From NCBI GenBank assembly GCA_028280485.1, contig JANQLS010000090.1, positions 1 to 64,000 on the forward strand: a DNA stretch of 64,000 nucleotides, read 5' to 3'. Of the stretch, positions 4,374 to 44,353 are shown piece after piece. The stretch comes from Planctomycetota bacterium (GTDB lineage Bacteria; Planctomycetota; UBA8108; JACQVS01). The notes beneath the pieces are model-generated. The model was given only the letters and a program-made list of their open reading frames with translations. It searched no databases and had not been told where the DNA came from. How positions within the stretch are numbered: the stretch's first letter is position 1; every line of letters starts with the position of its first letter. Position numbers and translations under genes: made by a program.

Positions 4374-5624
4374 TTATTCTTCCTCTTGGGGCTCTGCTTT
4401 AACTTTAACTTTAAATGAACCGGATACTTGACCACTTCGATAGGCGAGAGCGAAATAAATCTTACCGCTTCCCTTTGCTTTACCTGAAAATTTCGGTCCA
4501 ACTAAAAAGGGCTCTCCTTTTTTACCGATCTTGGCGACGAGAGAGGCTGGGGGGAAATTTTTAAAGTGGTTACCGCCTAAGTTTCTCGTTCCTCCGGGTC
4601 CAGCCGACCAACCGTAATTGACCAATTGAATCGTTCCTGAAGCTTCGATCACTAATGGAGATCCTTTCGTCACTTCCACTTTCGAGGCAAACCAATTGTT
4701 TTGGGGAGCCAAGTGGGTGGCGGGGAAATCGAACTCTGCTTGGTGTAAAGAGTGAGGTTGGAAAACGATACTGATAATGGATTTGCGGTGAGCTTGTAGC
4801 TTTCCGTACTTACTAGCGATTTCAAATTCTGAAGACACGATTTTGCCTTTGATAGTAAAGGCGGTCGTTACAACTTCATCGTCTTGGCCAGAAATGGGAT
4901 TTTCGGCTTCGTCGTCCGAGATTTCTTGGCCTTCATTTTCTTCTTCGATCTCTTTGATGAGTTTCTCAGATCGACTTTTAACTTCTTCATCATCGGATTT
5001 GGTCGCCTTCTTTAAAAGCTTTAAGGCATCGATACCAAATTGACGAAGATTCTCGGTGGCTTTTTCTCGGATCTCAAATTCTTCACTTTTCAGCTTTTCG
5101 ATTTCAGCCTCAATTTTCGTATCTAATCCTGGATCTTTTAGGCGAGCAAAGCGAATGCGAACGAGGTCGCTTCTCGGTACTTTTAATACCCCATATAGAG
5201 TTTTAATTTCTAGTACAGCTAATTTAGGATCGCCACTAATCCGAGTTCCATCGTACATGCGAAAAATGGGAATAGCTGGCTTTTTGACCTTCTTAGGCTT
5301 GGGTGCGGCCTTCTTTTCCTCTTTGTTCTCGGTCTTTTTATCCTCAGATTTTTCGCCCTTCTTGGTTAATACTTTTTTTGCTCCCTCCAATATTTTTTTA
5401 ACCGTAGCCTTAGCCTTGGCTTCTTTTACCTTCTCTTTGACGGCTTCAACCTTGTCTTCAGCATCCGCTTGAGCAGATACCGATGAGGTCATTGACAGCA
5501 TCCAACAGCTAATGAGAAAAAGGATCGCAATGGCGAAGGGGGATGGATTTGATAGCGTTTTCATATTCATCTCTTTCGGTGGGACTGAATGTTTAATCCT
5601 GTTCATTGTCGAGTTAGTATTCAT
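4374..5624 (-). CDS. Secreted Lys/Glu-rich hypothetical protein with PA-IL/LecA-like C-terminal region
   Basis: 416 aa; signal peptide, charged low-complexity segment, C-term LVAKIGKKGEPFLVGPKFSGKAKGSGKIYFALAYR...GSFKVKVK pattern. Confidence 0.55.
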   Translation of the reverse strand: MNTNSTMNRIKHSVPPKEMNMKTLSNPSPFAIAILFLISCWMLSMTSSVSAQADAEDKVEAVKEKVKEAKAKATVKKILEGAKKVLTKKGEKSEDKKTENKEEKKAAPKPKKVKKPAIPIFRMYDGTRISGDPKLAVLEIKTLYGVLKVPRSDLVRIRFARLKDPGLDTKIEAEIEKLKSEEFEIREKATENLRQFGIDALKLLKKATKSDDEEVKSRSEKLIKEIEEENEGQEISDDEAENPISGQDDEVVTTAFTIKGKIVSSEFEIASKYGKLQAHRKSIISIVFQPHSLHQAEFDFPATHLAPQNNWFASKVEVTKGSPLVIEASGTIQLVNYGWSAGPGGTRNLGGNHFKNFPPASLVAKIGKKGEPFLVGPKFSGKAKGSGKIYFALAYRSGQVSGSFKVKVKAEPQEEE

Positions 5625-5631
5625 CCTTAGA

Positions 5632-8600
5632 TTAAAAATCTAAGTCGTCGAGATCATCGAGTTGTACTCTGATTTTAACTTCGGGTTCAGCCGGCTTTTC
5701 ATCAGAGGATGTCGTATTAGAAGGCTTGTTCTTTTTAGTGTGTTTTTCAGTTTTTGAATCTGTATTGGCATCTAACTTTTCTTCGCCCGACTCTTCCGCC
5801 TCGGCTTGGTTCTTTTCTAGTCGGTAAAGTCCGAAGCCTTCTGAGTTTCCCATGGCGATGGAAACTTTCCCGCTTTCATGATCTTTCACAAAGGCTATTT
5901 TAGGATACATACCCGTACCTTTATTGGCGATCTCATGGGAGAACTGGCTTTCAAGTTTTCCCGTTTCCAGATCAAAGATAATCCACTGGCTGCTCCACTT
6001 CTGATTTTCTTCTGCCAGGTTGAGATTCAAATAAAGTTTGTTTCCTACTCTACGGGCTGAGTTTCTAAGAGTGACGCCGTTTTCACCTATCGACACTTCC
6101 TCAATCTTTTCTCCCTTTGAATTGAGCTTAATAAAGTGCAATTTTTTTCCTGATTGAGTGAAGGTCGCTCTGTAGGCCGTCGTCGATGTTGTCGAGCTCG
6201 ACTCGGAGGCGAATAAAGCCCAGTAAGTGGCAGTTGAATCATTTTCAGAATGGAATTCATAGACTCCTTTTGGCAGCGACATGGGAGGAATAGTGATTTC
6301 CCATAACAATCTTCCACTTTTTGCCGTACGCGATTGTAGTTTTCCGGTTCGGGTGACGATCCATATCTCAGTTGAAGTTGCTCGAGCTATAGGGCCGTTT
6401 TGTCCTTGATCTTGGGGCAGGGTCCAAAGTGATTTTTGAGAATGAAGATCGATGACTTCGGTCTGGGTTGTTGTCGTGAACACTGCGAAGTGACCGGGGA
6501 CGATTTGAGAGTCCATCAAGTTTTTGTTCTTCTCATCGAGTCGAATGAAAGTGTCGGTCTCTTTGGTATGAAGGCGTTTCTGTAAAAAGTCGGGTCGACG
6601 AATGAGGAGACCACTGGGAGAGAGAGTCATCGTCACTACTCGATCTCCATGAGGCAAAAACGTACCGGTAGGTTTTCCTGAGTGTTGGTCTGAACGAAGA
6701 ATCATCTTTCCTGATTCCAAGTGGAACCCTGTTAAGGAACCATCGGTTTGAGAGACTAAGACTCGATTCTTGCTGGGCTCAAAAAGTGCTCGTGGAAATA
6801 AGTTACCTGAAACTCTGTTGAGGCTGCTACGACTCCACCCGCGACCGGCTTGATTCTGATAGAGCTTTTGAAGTTCGTGATCGTAGTTATGGCGCCAACC
6901 GATTTTAGGTACATCGAATTTCTTTGCTGGGCTGGGTTCATCTTTGGAGTCCGTGCCTTCATCGGAAGCGATATCACTTTCTGTTGTATTCTTTTGGGGG
7001 ATAAGAATTTGATAGATCCCCGCTGCCGTAAACAGAAGAGCGCTTGAGCCTTTGAAGAAAACTTTACCGGGTTCTTCCAAATGAGATTTCAATCCGGCTT
7101 TCGCTTTTTCTACATCCGGGTATTCAGGAAGTTCTAACTTCCCAAGAAGATTCCCTTCAGTATCCGTGAAATGTAAATTGCCAGCATAGATAGAGAGAAC
7201 CCAAGGTAAGGGATCAGAAGTTTCGGTGGTTTCAACCAAGAATCCTTGATCGAGACTTTTCCAGGTGATCTCCTTCCACGATAAATCTTCTTTCGCTTTA
7301 GTTTTTAATTGAGCCAGGAGTTCACTCGGAAGAGAAGATTCGACTTCCAGGTGAGCGGCTAAGGCTTGTTTTAATTCTTGAATTTCTTCGAGTTCTAAAC
7401 TTTCAGGAAATCGATCGGTCAATAAATTTAACCAACCATGACAAGCGATGAGATCTCCTCGATCCAGGGTCAGGGCAATTAAATACGCTAAGGCTTCAGC
7501 GCTTTTCTCATCGTGACCGTTCTCAAAAACAAACTTTTTCAATTCGTAGTGACGGTTGCTGGGGCGGTCTGAAAGTTGTTGTAGATCTTTCGTTGGGAGG
7601 GAATGGGTCTCAGGTTCAAAGTCGTTTGTTTTTTGGAGGTGAACCAATGAATCTAAAAGGTAACGCTTCAATTGAGTTTGACTTCCGAATGGAGTCAAAA
7701 ATGAGCTATTACCAGAACGATCCTCCGACGGTTTAAGAAGTTGGGTGTAGTGTTCAAAGGCTTGTTGAGGATTCAATTCTTCTAATGATAAACCCATCTC
7801 TAAATTGAGGCTGAGTCGTTCGTCATCCGTCCATTTAATTTTTTTTAATTGGAGGAGTCTCTTTAGAGAATCAGGGCGTTGTTGGCTTGTTGAGTTGAGC
7901 GCTGTGTCGGCTAAGACTGCTTTGACTTCAGCTAAGGTGATTTCGGATTGAGTTTGGGATAGTATTTTTTCCCCTAATTTGAAACTTTCTTCGAATTTTC
8001 CTTCTGCGGCTAACAATCTAGCCTTTTCGAGGAATTTGCGATCTCCTGCCTCCTCGATGGTTTTTCGAGTCGTTTCTAAAGGCTCGACTAAAGCAATACC
8101 CCACTTGCCTGAAATAACTAAGCGGTGTTGATTCTGGCTGCCTTCTGGAAGATGAGTTAGCGCGAGGTTTCCTGGACGAGGTGAGGGGAAGCGAGAATCG
8201 ATCCAGCCGAGTTTTTGGATCTCCTTTCCCGATTCCTTATCGAGAACAACTAAGCCTTCCTCTACTGCGACAAAGATTTTCTTGTTGGTGACGAATCCAC
8301 CTCCGCTCAATCCATCGAATTCCGGAGTTTCGTAAATGGGTTCGCCGGTTGTCAGTGAAAGTGCCTGAATGGTTTTATTGCCCCAATAAATTCGTTTTTC
8401 ATCGGCGCCTAGAACAAAGGCTTGTCCATTATCGATGTTTTTTCGCCAGAGAGTTTTCCCGGTGGATTTATCGAGAACAAAAAGTTCTTTCGAGTTGAGA
8501 GGAGTACAAACGATCGCATCGCCGACCGAAATCAAACGTTCACGTTTAAAGCGATTGAACTGAACGTGCGCTGAAGATCGGTATCGAGTCCACCAACGAA

Positions 8601-38788: not shown

Positions 38789-40363
38789 ATGGCATATAAA
38801 GACTTATTCAATACTTTAGTTTCAAAACTTCCTAAGACCGACACCGCCAACGAGGCTGGGGGCCAAGCTTACCGCTTAGCTCCAAAACACGCTCTGGCGC
38901 AGTACGCAGTGACCGGTTGTATGAACTCAACCTTCTACGCATCGGCTCAATTGCAATTAGATCGAGTCTTGGCATTGTGTAACGAAATCGAACCCGAGTT
39001 CATCGCGAAGGTGGCGCTCTACGCTCGAAATCGTGGGTACATGAAAGACTTGCCCGCGTTGCTGGTCGCATACTTGGCTTCAAAGCAACCTGGCCTTATG
39101 GCTGAGGTTTTCGATCGAGTGATCGACAACCCCAAAATGCTTCGAAACTTCGTTCAAATTGTTCGAAGTGGAGTCACTGGGCGTCGAAGTTTGGGGTCGC
39201 TGCCCAAGCGAATGATTCTTCAATGGTTGGAGAAGCGTTCTGACGAGCAACTCTTTATTGGCTCAGTAGGAAACACTCCTTCTTTGGCGGACATCATCAA
39301 GATGGTTCACCCCAAGCCAAAAACCAAGTCTCGTGAAGCATTGTTCGGATACCTCTTAGGTCGGAGCTACGACGCTGAGGCTCTTCCTCAAGTGGTTCGA
39401 GATTTTGAGGCTTACAAGAATGCTGAAGATCGAAGAATGCTTGAGACTCCCGATGTCCCTTTCCAATTCTTAACCAGCTTAGATCTGGCGGATTGGGAAT
39501 GGCGTCAAATCGCTCGCTACGCTCCTTGGCAGATGACTCGAATGAACTTAAACGCGTTTGCTTCGCACAATGTGTTTAAGGACCTTGAGATCACCAAGTT
39601 GGTGGCTGATCGATTGCGCGATTCTGAAAAGGTTCGTCGAGCCAAAGTGTTCCCTTACCAACTTTTGGTCGCAAGTCAAAGCGCGCGTTCGGATGTTCCT
39701 TATGCGATTCGTTCAGCATTGGAAGATGCGTTGGAGGTCGCCTTGGAGAATGTTCCTGAGATCAAAGGAAAGGTTTATGTTTTCCTCGATATCTCTGGAT
39801 CGATGCATTCGCCCGTTACTGGGTATCGCCGTGGATCGACAACTGCTGTTCGTTGTATTGACGTTGCCTCATTATTGGCTTCGGCACTCGTAAAGAAAAA
39901 TCCTCAAACGGAGGTCATCCCTTTCGAGTCTCGTGCTTACGAGTTCAAGTTGGATGTGACCGAACGGGTGCTCGTCAACGCTCAACGCTTAGCGAGCTTG
40001 CCTTGTGGCGGAACCAACTGTTCAGCTCCGTTGGCGCTTCTTAACCGAAGAAAAGATCAGGGTGACTTAGTGATCTACGTCTCCGATAACGAGTCTTGGA
40101 TCGATTCTCCTTACTACGGTCACTTCGGTGGAAAGGCGACTCGAACTCTTCAAGAGTGGAGTTTGTTCAAGCGTCGAAGCCCTGAGGCAAAAATGATCTG
40201 TATCGACATTCAACCCTACGCCAACACTCAAGCTAAGGAACGAGAAGACATCATCAACGTCGGTGGCTTCTCGGATCAAGTGTTTAACTTGATCGCCGAA
40301 GTGGCGAGTGGAAACGCAACTGAGAATCATTGGGTGAACCTTATTGATGCCCAAAGGCTCTGA
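38789..40363 (+). CDS. rsr: Ro60/TROVE-domain RNA-binding protein with C-terminal VWA (MIDAS) domain
   Basis: 524 aa; HEAT-like TROVE region (VALYARNRGYMKDLPALLVAYLA, RNFVQIVRSGVTGRRSLG..PKRMILQWL), VWA DISGSMHSPVTG. Confidence 0.93.
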   Translation: MAYKDLFNTLVSKLPKTDTANEAGGQAYRLAPKHALAQYAVTGCMNSTFYASAQLQLDRVLALCNEIEPEFIAKVALYARNRGYMKDLPALLVAYLASKQPGLMAEVFDRVIDNPKMLRNFVQIVRSGVTGRRSLGSLPKRMILQWLEKRSDEQLFIGSVGNTPSLADIIKMVHPKPKTKSREALFGYLLGRSYDAEALPQVVRDFEAYKNAEDRRMLETPDVPFQFLTSLDLADWEWRQIARYAPWQMTRMNLNAFASHNVFKDLEITKLVADRLRDSEKVRRAKVFPYQLLVASQSARSDVPYAIRSALEDALEVALENVPEIKGKVYVFLDISGSMHSPVTGYRRGSTTAVRCIDVASLLASALVKKNPQTEVIPFESRAYEFKLDVTERVLVNAQRLASLPCGGTNCSAPLALLNRRKDQGDLVIYVSDNESWIDSPYYGHFGGKATRTLQEWSLFKRRSPEAKMICIDIQPYANTQAKEREDIINVGGFSDQVFNLIAEVASGNATENHWVNLIDAQRL

Positions 40364-40833: not shown

Positions 40834-40919
40834 GTTGATGATCGAGTCGAATGCCCTAGGGACTACATTGAAATGAAAAGCCAAACGTCTCTAGACCGTT
40901 TGTCGACTCGATCTTCAAC
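40834..40919 (+). ncRNA. Y-RNA-like ncRNA, copy 1 (short, no tRNA-like module)
   Basis: Lower stem GTTGAtGATCGAGTCGA (40834-40850)/TCGACTCGATCtTCAAC (40903-40919); AUGCC internal loop; upper stem CTAGGGAC (40856)/GTCTCTAG (40887). Confidence 0.75.
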
Positions 40920-40980: not shown

Positions 40981-41123
40981 GTGACGAATGCTGATGGAAC
41001 TACATGGATATTGACCCGTAGGTTGTGAGTTCGAGTCTCACCAGCTGCACCATAGGTGGCTGTAGCTCAAAGGTAGAGCAACGTAATGTAATTGTTTCAT
41101 TTAACCCTTGTCGTCACGTTTTT
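40981..41123 (+). ncRNA. Y-RNA-like ncRNA, copy 2, with permuted tRNA-like module
   Basis: Lower stem GTGACGA (40981)/TCGTCAC (41111) then GTTTTT; upper stem GATGGAAC (40993)/GTTTCATT (41094) and TACAT/ATGTA; T-arm GTGAG-TTCGAGT-CTCAC (41025-41041), acceptor CAGCTGC (41042)/GTGGCTG (41056), D-arm GCTC-AAAGGTA-GAGC (41065-41079). Confidence 0.88.
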
Positions 41124-41137
41124 ATATTCGTAATGAA

Positions 41138-41461
41138 TCATCCCCACATTGAAGGAAACAACAACCAGAAATGGATTAGGAAGTGACCCCAGAGAACCGC
41201 ACCAGCGCTCAGGCTTTTCGATTTAAATAATGCAATAAAGCCAAAGATGATTCCCACAGTTGCATCGAGCAAGATAAAGGAAAAGCCAATGAGGGCGCCT
41301 AAATAAGCGATAGGTGTAGGAAATATTCCGAGGAGAATTAATCCAAATCCAATCTGGGTAATAAGGCTTAAAATTAATGCGATGGCTGAGATCCAAAAGC
41401 AAACTCTCCCTTTCTTAGGATCTTTGTGGTGTGTCAGGGTTTGAAATATCGGATCAGCCAT
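41138..41461 (-). CDS. Small multi-TM membrane protein, family member 1
   Basis: 107 aa; CFWISAIALIL...SKSLSAGAVLWGHFLIHFW; shares layout with ten further ORFs in 41.8-49.7 kb. Confidence 0.7.
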   Translation of the reverse strand: MADPIFQTLTHHKDPKKGRVCFWISAIALILSLITQIGFGLILLGIFPTPIAYLGALIGFSFILLDATVGIIFGFIALFKSKSLSAGAVLWGHFLIHFWLLFPSMWG

Positions 41462-41498
41462 GATCTTAAGAATGAATTATTTATGTTATTCAATGGTA

Positions 41499-41577
41499 GA
41501 TTGAAACGAATGCCTTAGGGACTACATGCCCTCGACTTCTAATCGAACTGTCTCTAAACTTCCTTGTCGTTTCGATC
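41499..41577 (+). ncRNA. Y-RNA-like ncRNA, copy 3 (short)
   Basis: Lower stem GATTGAAACGA (41499)/TCGTTTCGATC (41567); AUGCC loop; upper stem TTAGGGAC (41515)/GTCTCTAA (41550). Confidence 0.75.
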
Positions 41578-41608
41578 TGCCGTGATATTTCTTAGTTTTC
41601 GTTTCGGT

Positions 41609-41732
41609 ACTCGCGAATGCCAGTGGGAATACATGGTAGAGGCGGATTTCTCCGCCGGGGTTCGAGGCCCCAACTCACATTGGAAAAACTCTGATTGAGA
41701 AAAATCTCACTACCCTTTGTCGCGAGTTTTTT
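41609..41732 (+). ncRNA. Y-RNA-like ncRNA, copy 4 (long, with T-arm-like hairpin)
   Basis: Lower stem ACTCGCGA (41609)/TCGCGAGT (41720) then TTTTTT; upper stem AGTGGGA (41622)/TCTCACT (41705); hairpin GGCGGA-TTTC-TCCGCC and T-arm-like GGGG-TTCGAGG-CCCC (41657-41671). Confidence 0.8.
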
Positions 41733-41843
41733 AGGGCTGATGAAAACCCTAAATTCATAACCGTTTTTAAGTCAGTTATTTCACGATAAATTAGAAAATT
41801 CTGCTGGGATTTTTGCTCAAGTTTCCTGTTCTAATATTTTAAC

Positions 41844-42233
41844 TTAACGGTAAACCCACCACTCAATAAGTAGAAATAGAAGTGCAATAAGAGAAGCCCA
41901 GATCCACCAAAATTGAATAGCAACTTGGGCGATACAGAGATACAGCATCGATTTTTTTCGTGTTCGCATATGACAAATCATCCCCGATGATAATCCAATC
42001 GCTGCGATTATCATGGCGAGGATTATTCCAATTGCATAGCCGTCTTTTGGATGATAGCGAGGGTCTTCAATTTGAACGTTTAATATTGCCAAAAAAATAA
42101 TAGTTCCATGAGTAAATATTCCGAAAGCTAACGAGGCAATGCTAACCCAAAAAGGAATCGTTATATTTCTGGGAATGCGGTGATCTGTTTCAATCGGTGG
42201 GATTGAATTATAGTCTTCTGGTGGTTCCGTCAT
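41844..42233 (-). CDS. Small multi-TM membrane protein, family member 2
   Basis: 129 aa; IPFWVSIASLAFGIFTHG. Confidence 0.7.
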   Translation of the reverse strand: MTEPPEDYNSIPPIETDHRIPRNITIPFWVSIASLAFGIFTHGTIIFLAILNVQIEDPRYHPKDGYAIGIILAMIIAAIGLSSGMICHMRTRKKSMLYLCIAQVAIQFWWIWASLIALLFLLIEWWVYR

Positions 42234-42274
42234 TAACCGAAAAAATTCACTCGCTGTTTGCCACTTAATTCATT

Positions 42275-42628
42275 TTATAAGTTCCCCATAGCGTAAAGAA
42301 TCGATAATGGGAATCCAACAACAAATAGATTTCCAAACCAAATTAGGAAGCCTTTTAAATCGCCTGCTCTAACCCAATAGATCGTGCTGGATATAAAGCC
42401 GACCAAGGTGATTACTGAGATGATCATCAATCCATAAACGTAAGCTGCTATGGCATCCCAGCCCTTAATAATTCCAGTGGAAATAGTGACTACCAACAAA
42501 ATTTCCAAGAATAGATTCAGGCCGATGGCAACGATGGTAATCCAAAACGATTTTGGGGCGTGGAAGGACTCTTTCTTTGGTAGTTCATTGATGATCGGAG
42601 TGGGAGAGTTGTAGTCGCTGGTGTTCAT
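42275..42628 (-). CDS. Small multi-TM membrane protein, family member 3
   Basis: 117 aa; KSFWITIVAIGLNL. Confidence 0.7.
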   Translation of the reverse strand: MNTSDYNSPTPIINELPKKESFHAPKSFWITIVAIGLNLFLEILLVVTISTGIIKGWDAIAAYVYGLMIISVITLVGFISSTIYWVRAGDLKGFLIWFGNLFVVGFPLSILYAMGNL

Positions 42629-42640
42629 GGTCTACTACTT

Positions 42641-43015
42641 TCAAATAGAACTCAGGCCAAGAGAGACGATCGTGACGAAAGCAGGCACGACCATACTTAA
42701 GATAAATACAAAGCCACTGGTGAGAGAGCGCGATTTTATTAAGAAAATAAAACTTGTGATGAAGCCTATGATTGCTGAGCCCAGGGCTGCAAAGAGGAAA
42801 AAGGGAAGCCCAAAAGTGCTCACTACTAATAAGACCATTGAGCTTTGACTGAATATCATTGCGACCAATAGGAAGGCCAGGATCAGAAAGTTCAAGAAGA
42901 TCGCCCAAAGGGATTGAGCTAAGTACTTTCCGTACTTTGAATCTGACTTCGGGATGCATCCGCTGAGAATTTCAGTGATTGAAAGACGATCTTGATTCTT
43001 CATTGATAATCTCAA
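42641..43015 (-). CDS. Small multi-TM membrane protein, family member 4
   Basis: 124 aa; SLWAIFLNFLIL...KSRSLTSGFVFILSMVVPAFV. Overlapping frame 42585..42959 considered less likely. Confidence 0.65.
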   Translation of the reverse strand: MRLSMKNQDRLSITEILSGCIPKSDSKYGKYLAQSLWAIFLNFLILAFLLVAMIFSQSSMVLLVVSTFGLPFFLFAALGSAIIGFITSFIFLIKSRSLTSGFVFILSMVVPAFVTIVSLGLSSI

Positions 43016-43063
43016 TTCTTTTAAACTTAAAATTGCAGTTAATGTCGAGAGTTCTACGCATCT

Positions 43064-43489
43064 TTAAAAATTCTGTATGATAAACGGAATTGCGGGGGCG
43101 AGGAAATTTAGAGCGAATACTGCGTAGCCCAAGGCGGACTCACGCAGGGCTTGAAACATTGCACTGGCGAGAAATCCCAAACCTGTAATTGCGGCCAAAG
43201 GTAAGTACATACGAAAATAATTGATTAATACCTCAACTGATTGAAATAGATTTGCATTCTTCCAATCAGAGATGAAGTTATGTGATAAAGAGCTTGAGAA
43301 AACAAAGCTCTCAACACAGAAGGCGATTGCAATAAAAAGATAGATGCCGGCGAAGAAGTCAGTTCTAAGATTTGTTTTCCTCTCACTGCTAAGTGAATCG
43401 GATAAGAGCTTGCTCCTTTTTAAGCGTAGTTGTTCTCTTTGATTTGCTAAGGCTGAGATTGCTTTCATGTTTTGCATTTGAGACTCCAT
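43064..43489 (-). CDS. Small multi-TM membrane protein, family member 5
   Basis: 141 aa; ESALGYAVFALNFLAPAIPFI. Confidence 0.7.
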   Translation of the reverse strand: MESQMQNMKAISALANQREQLRLKRSKLLSDSLSSERKTNLRTDFFAGIYLFIAIAFCVESFVFSSSLSHNFISDWKNANLFQSVEVLINYFRMYLPLAAITGLGFLASAMFQALRESALGYAVFALNFLAPAIPFIIQNF

Positions 43490-43510
43490 TCATTCGAAAA
43501 TCTTGAGCGA

Positions 43511-43924
43511 TCAGAAATACTTGATGGCGACGAAGGGAAGAAAAGGCGCGATTGTATTCAAGGTGAGAGCGATTCCTCCCAGCAATGATCCCTTTCTGGC
43601 TAAGGTGAACGCGCTAATGACGACGCCGATTCCAGTCAATAGCCCCACTCCAATCAAGCCAATGCCGCCCCAGATCATGAGCGCAAGGTAACCGTAGCTA
43701 GAAGTAGCTTCCCACTCGTCCAAGAATTTCATAAGTAAAAAACTGGTACAAGCCAAGTTGAAAAAGAAGTAGAGCGTTGCTGGAGTCAAAAATGCGATAT
43801 CGGCGATTTTGGACTCTTTAGGCTCTTTGATATTCCTTGGAATAATGCTGTGCTCTGCTAATTCATTCATGGTTTGTTCTTTTTTTTCTGAGTTGAGTTT
43901 TTTTATTAAATCGAAGAGCTTCAT
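43511..43924 (-). CDS. Small multi-TM membrane protein, family member 6
   Basis: 137 aa; KGSLLGGIALTLNTIAPFLPFV. Confidence 0.7.
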   Translation of the reverse strand: MKLFDLIKKLNSEKKEQTMNELAEHSIIPRNIKEPKESKIADIAFLTPATLYFFFNLACTSFLLMKFLDEWEATSSYGYLALMIWGGIGLIGVGLLTGIGVVISAFTLARKGSLLGGIALTLNTIAPFLPFVAIKYF

Positions 43925-43933
43925 TTTTTTACC

Positions 43934-44353
43934 TCAGGCGAATTGGAGGTAGAGGGGAATCGCGGGAGTGGCTATGTTAAAGATCACACCGAGGATCCCC
44001 TTAAAGGTGCCTGAGCCTGCGCTTTCCCTAGTCGCCGTTATCATTCCCCAGCACATAATTCCGACAATCGGAATGAGTAAGAAGGCGTGATAGAGCATTA
44101 CCCAAAGTATTTCGATTCCCCATGCAGCGTCTGCTCTCGCGTTGAAGTTTAGAATCAACAACCAGCTGAAAACCATATTCATCCCGCCGATCATCATGCC
44201 GGGAATCATTGCGCTGAGGGCAGCAGCTTCAGCTTCTTGCTTAGCTCCGTTTAAGTATTCAGTTCTTTCGTTATTAGCGATTTTGTTCATGACGACTCTC
44301 CATTCATTCAAGGTTTTTAGGACAGCGATCTCTAAAAGCAAGGTAGGTGCCAA
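43934..44353 (-). CDS. Small multi-TM membrane protein, family member 7
   Basis: 139 aa; SGTFKGILGVIFNIATPAIPLYLQ. Confidence 0.7.
   Translation of the reverse strand: MAPTLLLEIAVLKTLNEWRVVMNKIANNERTEYLNGAKQEAEAAALSAMIPGMMIGGMNMVFSWLLILNFNARADAAWGIEILWVMLYHAFLLIPIVGIMCWGMITATRESAGSGTFKGILGVIFNIATPAIPLYLQFA

Follow-up and report, generated by a model that had tools for sequence, protein, structure and literature searches.

The ro60 locus and its Y RNAs

The window, that is, the whole stretch of 64,000 nucleotides that was analysed, carries on its forward strand a ro60/rsr gene (38789-40363, +) encoding a protein of 524 amino acids with TROVE and Ro60 vWA domains (Pfam PF25045, E 2e-12; PF05731, E 3e-7), whose relatives in the PDB are 9l5y and the Deinococcus Rsr protein 2nvo. 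A Pfam TROVE search of the genome itself gave no match at E 0.001, which is a matter of sensitivity and not of absence, because hmmscan detects the TROVE domain above its cut-off. In a Ro60 tree the protein clusters with Phycisphaerae-like proteins, and the host is a planctomycete; among the genomes assembled for its phylum, one has the Y RNA that is also present in L070, a Planctomycetota MAG. The relatives checked have rtcR on the opposite strand, then ro60, the Y RNAs and rtcB, and some of them also rtcA; Salmonella is known to have this RNA-repair operon (PMC7790460). Neither rtcR nor rtcB adjoins ro60 in the window, and one RtcB is encoded on another contig. After the Y RNA cluster there is a run of small open reading frames on the reverse strand (41138-44353, -), apparently coding for membrane proteins of 107-141 amino acids, six of which were scanned against Pfam and gave no matches. 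ARAGORN found no tRNA in the window. Elsewhere in the genome, contig C199 packs about 20 tRNA genes densely into 2.1 kb (4448-6579, -); several isoacceptors have extra copies there, and one tRNA with anticodon CTA is called Pyl by ARAGORN.

Four Y RNAs, all on the forward strand, lie in tandem beside ro60. Copies 1 (40843-40910) and 3 (41501-41575) are compact and have no tRNA module; the former shows the GAATGC and TTGTCG motifs, and their minimum free energy (MFE) z-scores are -3.3 and -2.7, respectively. Copy 4 (41610-41729) contains a degenerate YrlA-like module with hairpins resembling a T-arm and an acceptor (RF02553, 30.7 bits, E 4e-4; MFE z -2.6). Copy 2 (40981-41117, about 137 nt), which begins 617 bases downstream of the end of ro60, is the one that holds the tRNA-like module, and the T-run GTTTTTAT follows its body. 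It is matched by the Rfam YrlA model RF02553 at 40981-41120 with 54.7 bits (cmscan E 4.2e-11 in the 1.9 kb searched and 4.9e-11 when all 9.4 Mb of the genome are counted), below the gathering score of 69, which is a curated threshold rather than a property of the RNA.

The MFE fold of 40981-41120 (-40.2 kcal/mol) holds all pairs of the module together with the Ro stem, and its stability is only moderately below that of shuffled sequences (z -1.47, 16/200). In this fold the outer Ro-binding stem (40981-40985/41113-41117, 7 bp) and the inner stem (40994-41000/41094-41100) are formed, and the stems flanking the two conserved Ro60-binding strands, the GAATGC bulge (40986-40991) and TTGTCG (41108-41113), are paired. 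An alternative fold, in which ACC pairs with GGU and the D-arm is broken, arises only when folding starts at 40985 and part of the outer stem is thereby lost; folded at full length, the RNA has the tRNA-like form as its MFE. Copy 2 is a Y RNA of the YrlA type, with Ro60 as its predicted partner.

The permuted tRNA-like module

Read from 5' to 3' on the forward strand, the module consists of a T-arm (41025-41041) with five of five pairs, GTGAG and CTCAC, around a TTCGAGT loop of consensus type, the acceptor 3' strand CAGCTGC (41042-41048, tRNA positions 66-72), the acceptor loop ACCATAG (41049-41055), the acceptor 5' strand GTGGCTG (41056-41062, tRNA positions 1-7), a UA linker (41063-41064) and a D-arm (41065-41079) with four of four pairs, GCTC and GAGC, around an AAAGGTA loop containing G18G19. 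The loop opens with the discriminator A73 and an encoded CCA (41049-41052, tRNA 73-76; CCA at 41050-41052), and its last three bases, TAG (41053-41055), are to judge from their place in the loop a presumed spacer that processing would remove. All seven acceptor positions are paired, five as Watson-Crick pairs and two as G.U: G1-C72, U2.G71, G3.U70, G4-C69, C5-G68, U6-A67 and G7-C66, followed by A73, C74, C75 and A76.

This order of T-arm, acceptor and D-arm had been put forward in the original prediction, and every pair is seen both in the sequence and in the full-length MFE. The fold also bears out that the Ro stem takes the place of an anticodon arm. The module is real, although its true limits are 41025-41079, and the span first proposed (41017-41083) includes a few extra flanking bases. 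Mimicry of tRNA by YrlA had likewise been invoked correctly: when it is superposed on tRNA, the crystal structure of Salmonella YrlA (6CU1) matches it in circularly permuted order (PMC11472068). Therefore, the circular permutation of a bacterial Y RNA is certainly already known and is not new here. What looks new is the position-specific CCA and the G3.U70/A73 alanine signature of the Y RNA modules. A search of the open literature, which did not extend to the original articles on Y RNA (Chen 2014, Wang 2018, Sim and Wolin 2018), turned up no paper that links Y RNA with alanyl-tRNA synthetase where bacterial tRNA-like RNAs are concerned.

Modules compared

A phylum-wide pattern search gave a canonical Y RNA in 8 of 399 genomes only, and the sample was therefore enlarged through metagenomes. 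The sources were 80 ro60 loci of named genomes, at least 120 metagenome stretches and 10 viral stretches, the last two groups being picked by a Y RNA pattern blind to the acceptor sequence. Among the matches listed there are 241 distinct modules, each preceded by the GAATGC motif of Y RNAs. The acceptor frame was fixed as the seven bases after the T-stem and the seven that end where the two-base linker to the D-arm begins, with at least six of the seven positions paired. The scan of the 80 Ro60 loci shows that the order T-arm, acceptor, D-arm adjoins most ro60 genes. Acceptor pairing is kept by the homologues as had been expected of them, all seven positions being paired in 210/241 modules under a finder that itself required at least six of seven.

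An alanine identity signature in the acceptor

Alanyl-tRNA synthetase (AlaRS) does not read the anticodon. The bacterial alanine identity set comprises A73, G2-C71, G3.U70, G4-C69 and G20 (PMC9976931). Copy 2 has G3.U70 (G at 41058, T at 41046), A73 (41049) and G4-C69 (G at 41059, C at 41045), and it misses the lesser determinants, with U2.G71 (T at 41057) in place of G2-C71 and U20 in place of G20. The original prediction had recognised the likeness to tRNA and missed that G3.U70 and A73 point specifically to alanyl-tRNA synthetase.

Across the 241 modules, G3.U70 is present in 59/107 of those with A73 versus 9/134 of the others (P 2e-17, a value which, like the other P-values, treats related sequences as independent). 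The association persists when each 80%-identity cluster is represented by a single module (P 1e-4), and also at the 75% level, where 14 clusters are left (P 0.01). No enrichment of G.U was found at other acceptor positions of the 241 modules; the 101 A73 modules that pair throughout the acceptor have 4, 4, 57, 9, 5, 3 and 1 wobbles at positions 1 to 7, respectively. Six A73 modules (L125, L183, L008, L049, L128 and L177) keep U70 with C3, U3 or A3 opposite it.

The class defined by G3.U70 and A73 has 60 modules with 21 acceptor duplexes, in which the pairs from 4:69 to 7:66 change in a compensatory way; G1-C72 is present in 59/60 modules, and G2-C71 likewise in 59/60. The window copy is the sole member with U2.G71 and may for that reason be a poor substrate, should charging occur in the class. 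In the other large class, 133 modules use 120 duplexes, and 44 of these modules close the loop with GNRA, UNCG or CUUG, compared with 0/60 in the alanine class. Hosts of the alanine class are Planctomycetota, Verrucomicrobiota and one acidobacterium, and the combination of G3.U70 and A73 was found in none of the 10 IMG/VR viral Y RNA loci. On the Ro60 tree the class label requires 11 changes, at least seven of them forced by well-supported branches, and several genomes contain tetraloop-type and alanine-type modules together.

The acceptors were also compared with host tRNA-Ala genes, namely those caught by one pattern or located in the same loci. In this comparison the free positions of the Y acceptor differ in 10 of 11 hosts, and the D-arms and T-arms in all 11. 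In the window genome, tRNA-Ala reads GGGGGAT/ATCCTCC-ACCA and the Y RNA GTGGCTG/CAGCTGC-ACCA. To judge by these sequences, the Y module is not a recent copy of tRNA-Ala.

Encoded CCA, loop length and tRNA 3' ends of the hosts

The proposal that the ACCA of the loop occupies tRNA positions 73-76 is supported by the whole set: CCA stands directly after the discriminator in 34/241 modules versus 5.2 expected from loop composition (P 9e-18), and at eight other loop offsets tested in the 241 modules no enrichment was found. Since the enrichment is confined to one offset, the encoded CCA is not due to chance, though literal ACCA is a minority state. As a family feature ACCA thus stands only in part, being literal in 15/108 A73 modules, many of which have A-N-C-A or neither. 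The looser motif N-C-A directly after the discriminator was observed in 74 of the 241 modules versus 19.5 expected. In the G3.U70 class, A-N-C-A opens the loop in 31/60 modules (5.4 expected) and literal CCA is present in 9/60. The enrichment extends outside the alanine class (25/181 modules).

Some modules depart from this scheme. In L140, L174, L182, L196, L199 and L204 a discriminator other than A (G or T) is followed directly by CCA; these are perhaps of other amino-acid identities, or relics. Besides, L057 (7111-7169) and L064 (7100-7157) show a G1.A72 mismatch and then A73-CCA.

Hosts were assigned a CCA mode by counting pattern matches to tRNA 3' ends, at least 10 matches being taken as encoding and at most 5 as non-encoding. 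Loops of the alanine class measure 6-14 nt in CCA-encoding hosts versus 11-40 nt in CCA-less hosts (Mann-Whitney P 3e-4), and N-C-A is found in 6/11 of the former versus 0/9 of the latter, a pattern which, on sequence grounds, would be expected of a true tRNA 3' end, but which is confounded by phylogeny. The alanine-class loops of CCA-less hosts contain no CCA. Among all non-tetraloop modules, CC at 74-75 occurs in 15/54 (CCA-encoding) versus 0/17 (CCA-less; P 0.015). Processing mode cannot be told apart from lineage here, because the CCA-less hosts of the class are all Planctomycetota; the three CCA-encoding planctomycetes agree with the pattern (7 nt in the window, 12 nt in L065 and 14 nt in L070). 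In the window genome ACCA is encoded both by a tRNA-Ala gene and by Y RNA copy 2. In CCA-less hosts tRNA-Ala is followed by a U-rich stretch of the same kind as that which opens the Y loop.

Comparison with known RNAs

The closest known RNA is YrlA (RF02553; 6CU1), with which copy 2 shares the neighbouring ro60 gene, the Ro stem with its GAATGC and TTGTCG strands and the permuted T-arm, acceptor and D-arm. It differs from YrlA in its score, which lies under the gathering cut-off, and in an acceptor that has G3.U70 and A73 and whose loop is unstructured and encodes CCA, where YrlA has a stable tetraloop.

Permuted tmRNA has alanine identity without an anticodon arm. As in the window RNA, the T-arm comes first, then the 3' strand of the acceptor with the place of the CCA, an intervening sequence, the 5' strand of the acceptor and the D-arm. 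Cutting of the tmRNA transcript leaves two pieces paired with each other (PMC11915505). The window RNA, in contrast, has no tag reading frame and no pseudoknots, and adjoins ro60. Its identification as a permuted tmRNA was rejected because RF00023 scores only 16.3 bits here and a separate, genuine tmRNA of standard type exists on contig C76 (192.9 bits).

In algae and archaea, circularly permuted tRNA genes likewise place the 3' half before the 5' half and have an intervening sequence of 1-74 nt in the acceptor loop, for whose removal RNase P and tRNase Z are possible enzymes (PMC3978253). The window RNA differs from them in that a Ro stem replaces the anticodon arm and there are no halves ligated to a tRNA; in the window, neither ARAGORN nor the fold gives an anticodon arm with a complete cloverleaf. 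A description as degenerate tandem tRNA genes was discarded too, because the acceptor strands pair at 7/7 positions and the Ro stem is present. With tRNA-Ala itself the module has in common G3.U70, A73, pairing of the G4-C69 type and a CCA encoded as in the tRNA-Ala of the host; it differs from it in the lack of an anticodon, in U2.G71 and U20, and in the other acceptor, T-arm and D-arm sequences.

Proposed mechanism and alternatives

The reading that we favour, tentatively and at somewhat less than an even chance, is that of a Y RNA with an alanine-tRNA acceptor whose loop is removed by tRNA end-processing enzymes and whose two-piece product is alanylated, cleavage and charging both being inferred steps. 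On this view the acceptor loop would act as an intervening sequence of the kind found in permuted tRNA genes and in permuted tmRNA. The cut before G1 would be made by RNase P, and the 3' side would be matured by way of the encoded CCA or, in genomes with CCA-less tRNA genes, through RNase Z and the CCA-adding enzyme. The product would be a two-piece Y RNA joined by its acceptor and Ro stems and ending in a free CCA 3' end, which alanyl-tRNA synthetase, needing no anticodon, could charge with alanine. Minihelices suffice for charging by this enzyme (PMC9976931). Against loop removal it may be argued that loops of 5-8 nt may be poor RNase P substrates. A plausible purpose, itself a guess, would be to provide the Ro60 particle with a tRNA-like end recognised by AlaRS or by translation factors, or to protect the new 3' end close to the nuclease that Y RNAs tether.

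The short loops of 5-8 nt found in many members would suit a molecule in which the loop stays closed, G3.U70 and A73 serving to bind AlaRS without charging, as a tether, decoy or sensor in the Ro60 particle. N-C-A after A73 is indeed missing in half of the class, and Y RNAs are known tethers, joining Ro60 to PNPase (PMC8394870). A closed loop, however, predicts neither CCA exactly at 74-76 nor loops of 20-40 nt, and leaves the absence of stable tetraloops in the class and the shift of loop length with host CCA encoding without explanation, for which reasons it is considered unlikely. It seems similarly improbable that the alanine-like acceptor and CCA are relics without a role, left by an origin from tandem tRNA genes (a 3' half, a spacer and the next 5' half). 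Such an origin would yield the order of the module, a spacer as loop and CCA wherever tRNA genes encode it, and G3.U70 would be expected if both tRNAs had been tRNA-Ala; the CCA enrichment outside the alanine class, mentioned above, also fits. On the other hand, the divergence of the Y acceptor from tRNA-Ala at free positions in nearly all hosts compared, and of the D- and T-arms in every one, speaks against it, and so does the retention of G.U at 3:70 with A73 over the 21 acceptor variants while neighbouring pairs covary, since a G.U that was a relic would be expected to drift.

It is quite improbable that copy 2 is an ordinary YrlA with a tRNA-like fold for binding PNPase or tRNA-modifying enzymes and nothing else, and that the acceptor details of this one copy are due to chance. 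In favour of this stand the fit of the fold to YrlA, the moderate Rfam score and the deviation of the window copy from its class at 2:71, but A73, CCA and G3.U70 jointly match a strong family-wide association.

If alanylation of the two-piece RNA takes place, tRNA-Ala and tmRNA would be joined by a third alanine-accepting bacterial RNA, an aminoacylated Y RNA of permuted, two-piece build from Planctomycetota, Verrucomicrobiota and some Acidobacteriota, often encoded in rtcR-ro60-rtcB operons. This wider claim is a real possibility, although we would sooner doubt it than rely on it. The maintenance of an alanine signature across three phyla would turn a structural resemblance into a concrete claim that can be quickly tested. 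If it is true, Ro60 particles would carry an amino acid, or would recruit the enzyme that attaches one; RNA quality control and RNA repair would be linked to translation, and the trick of tmRNA, alanine identity without an anticodon, would have been put to use independently.
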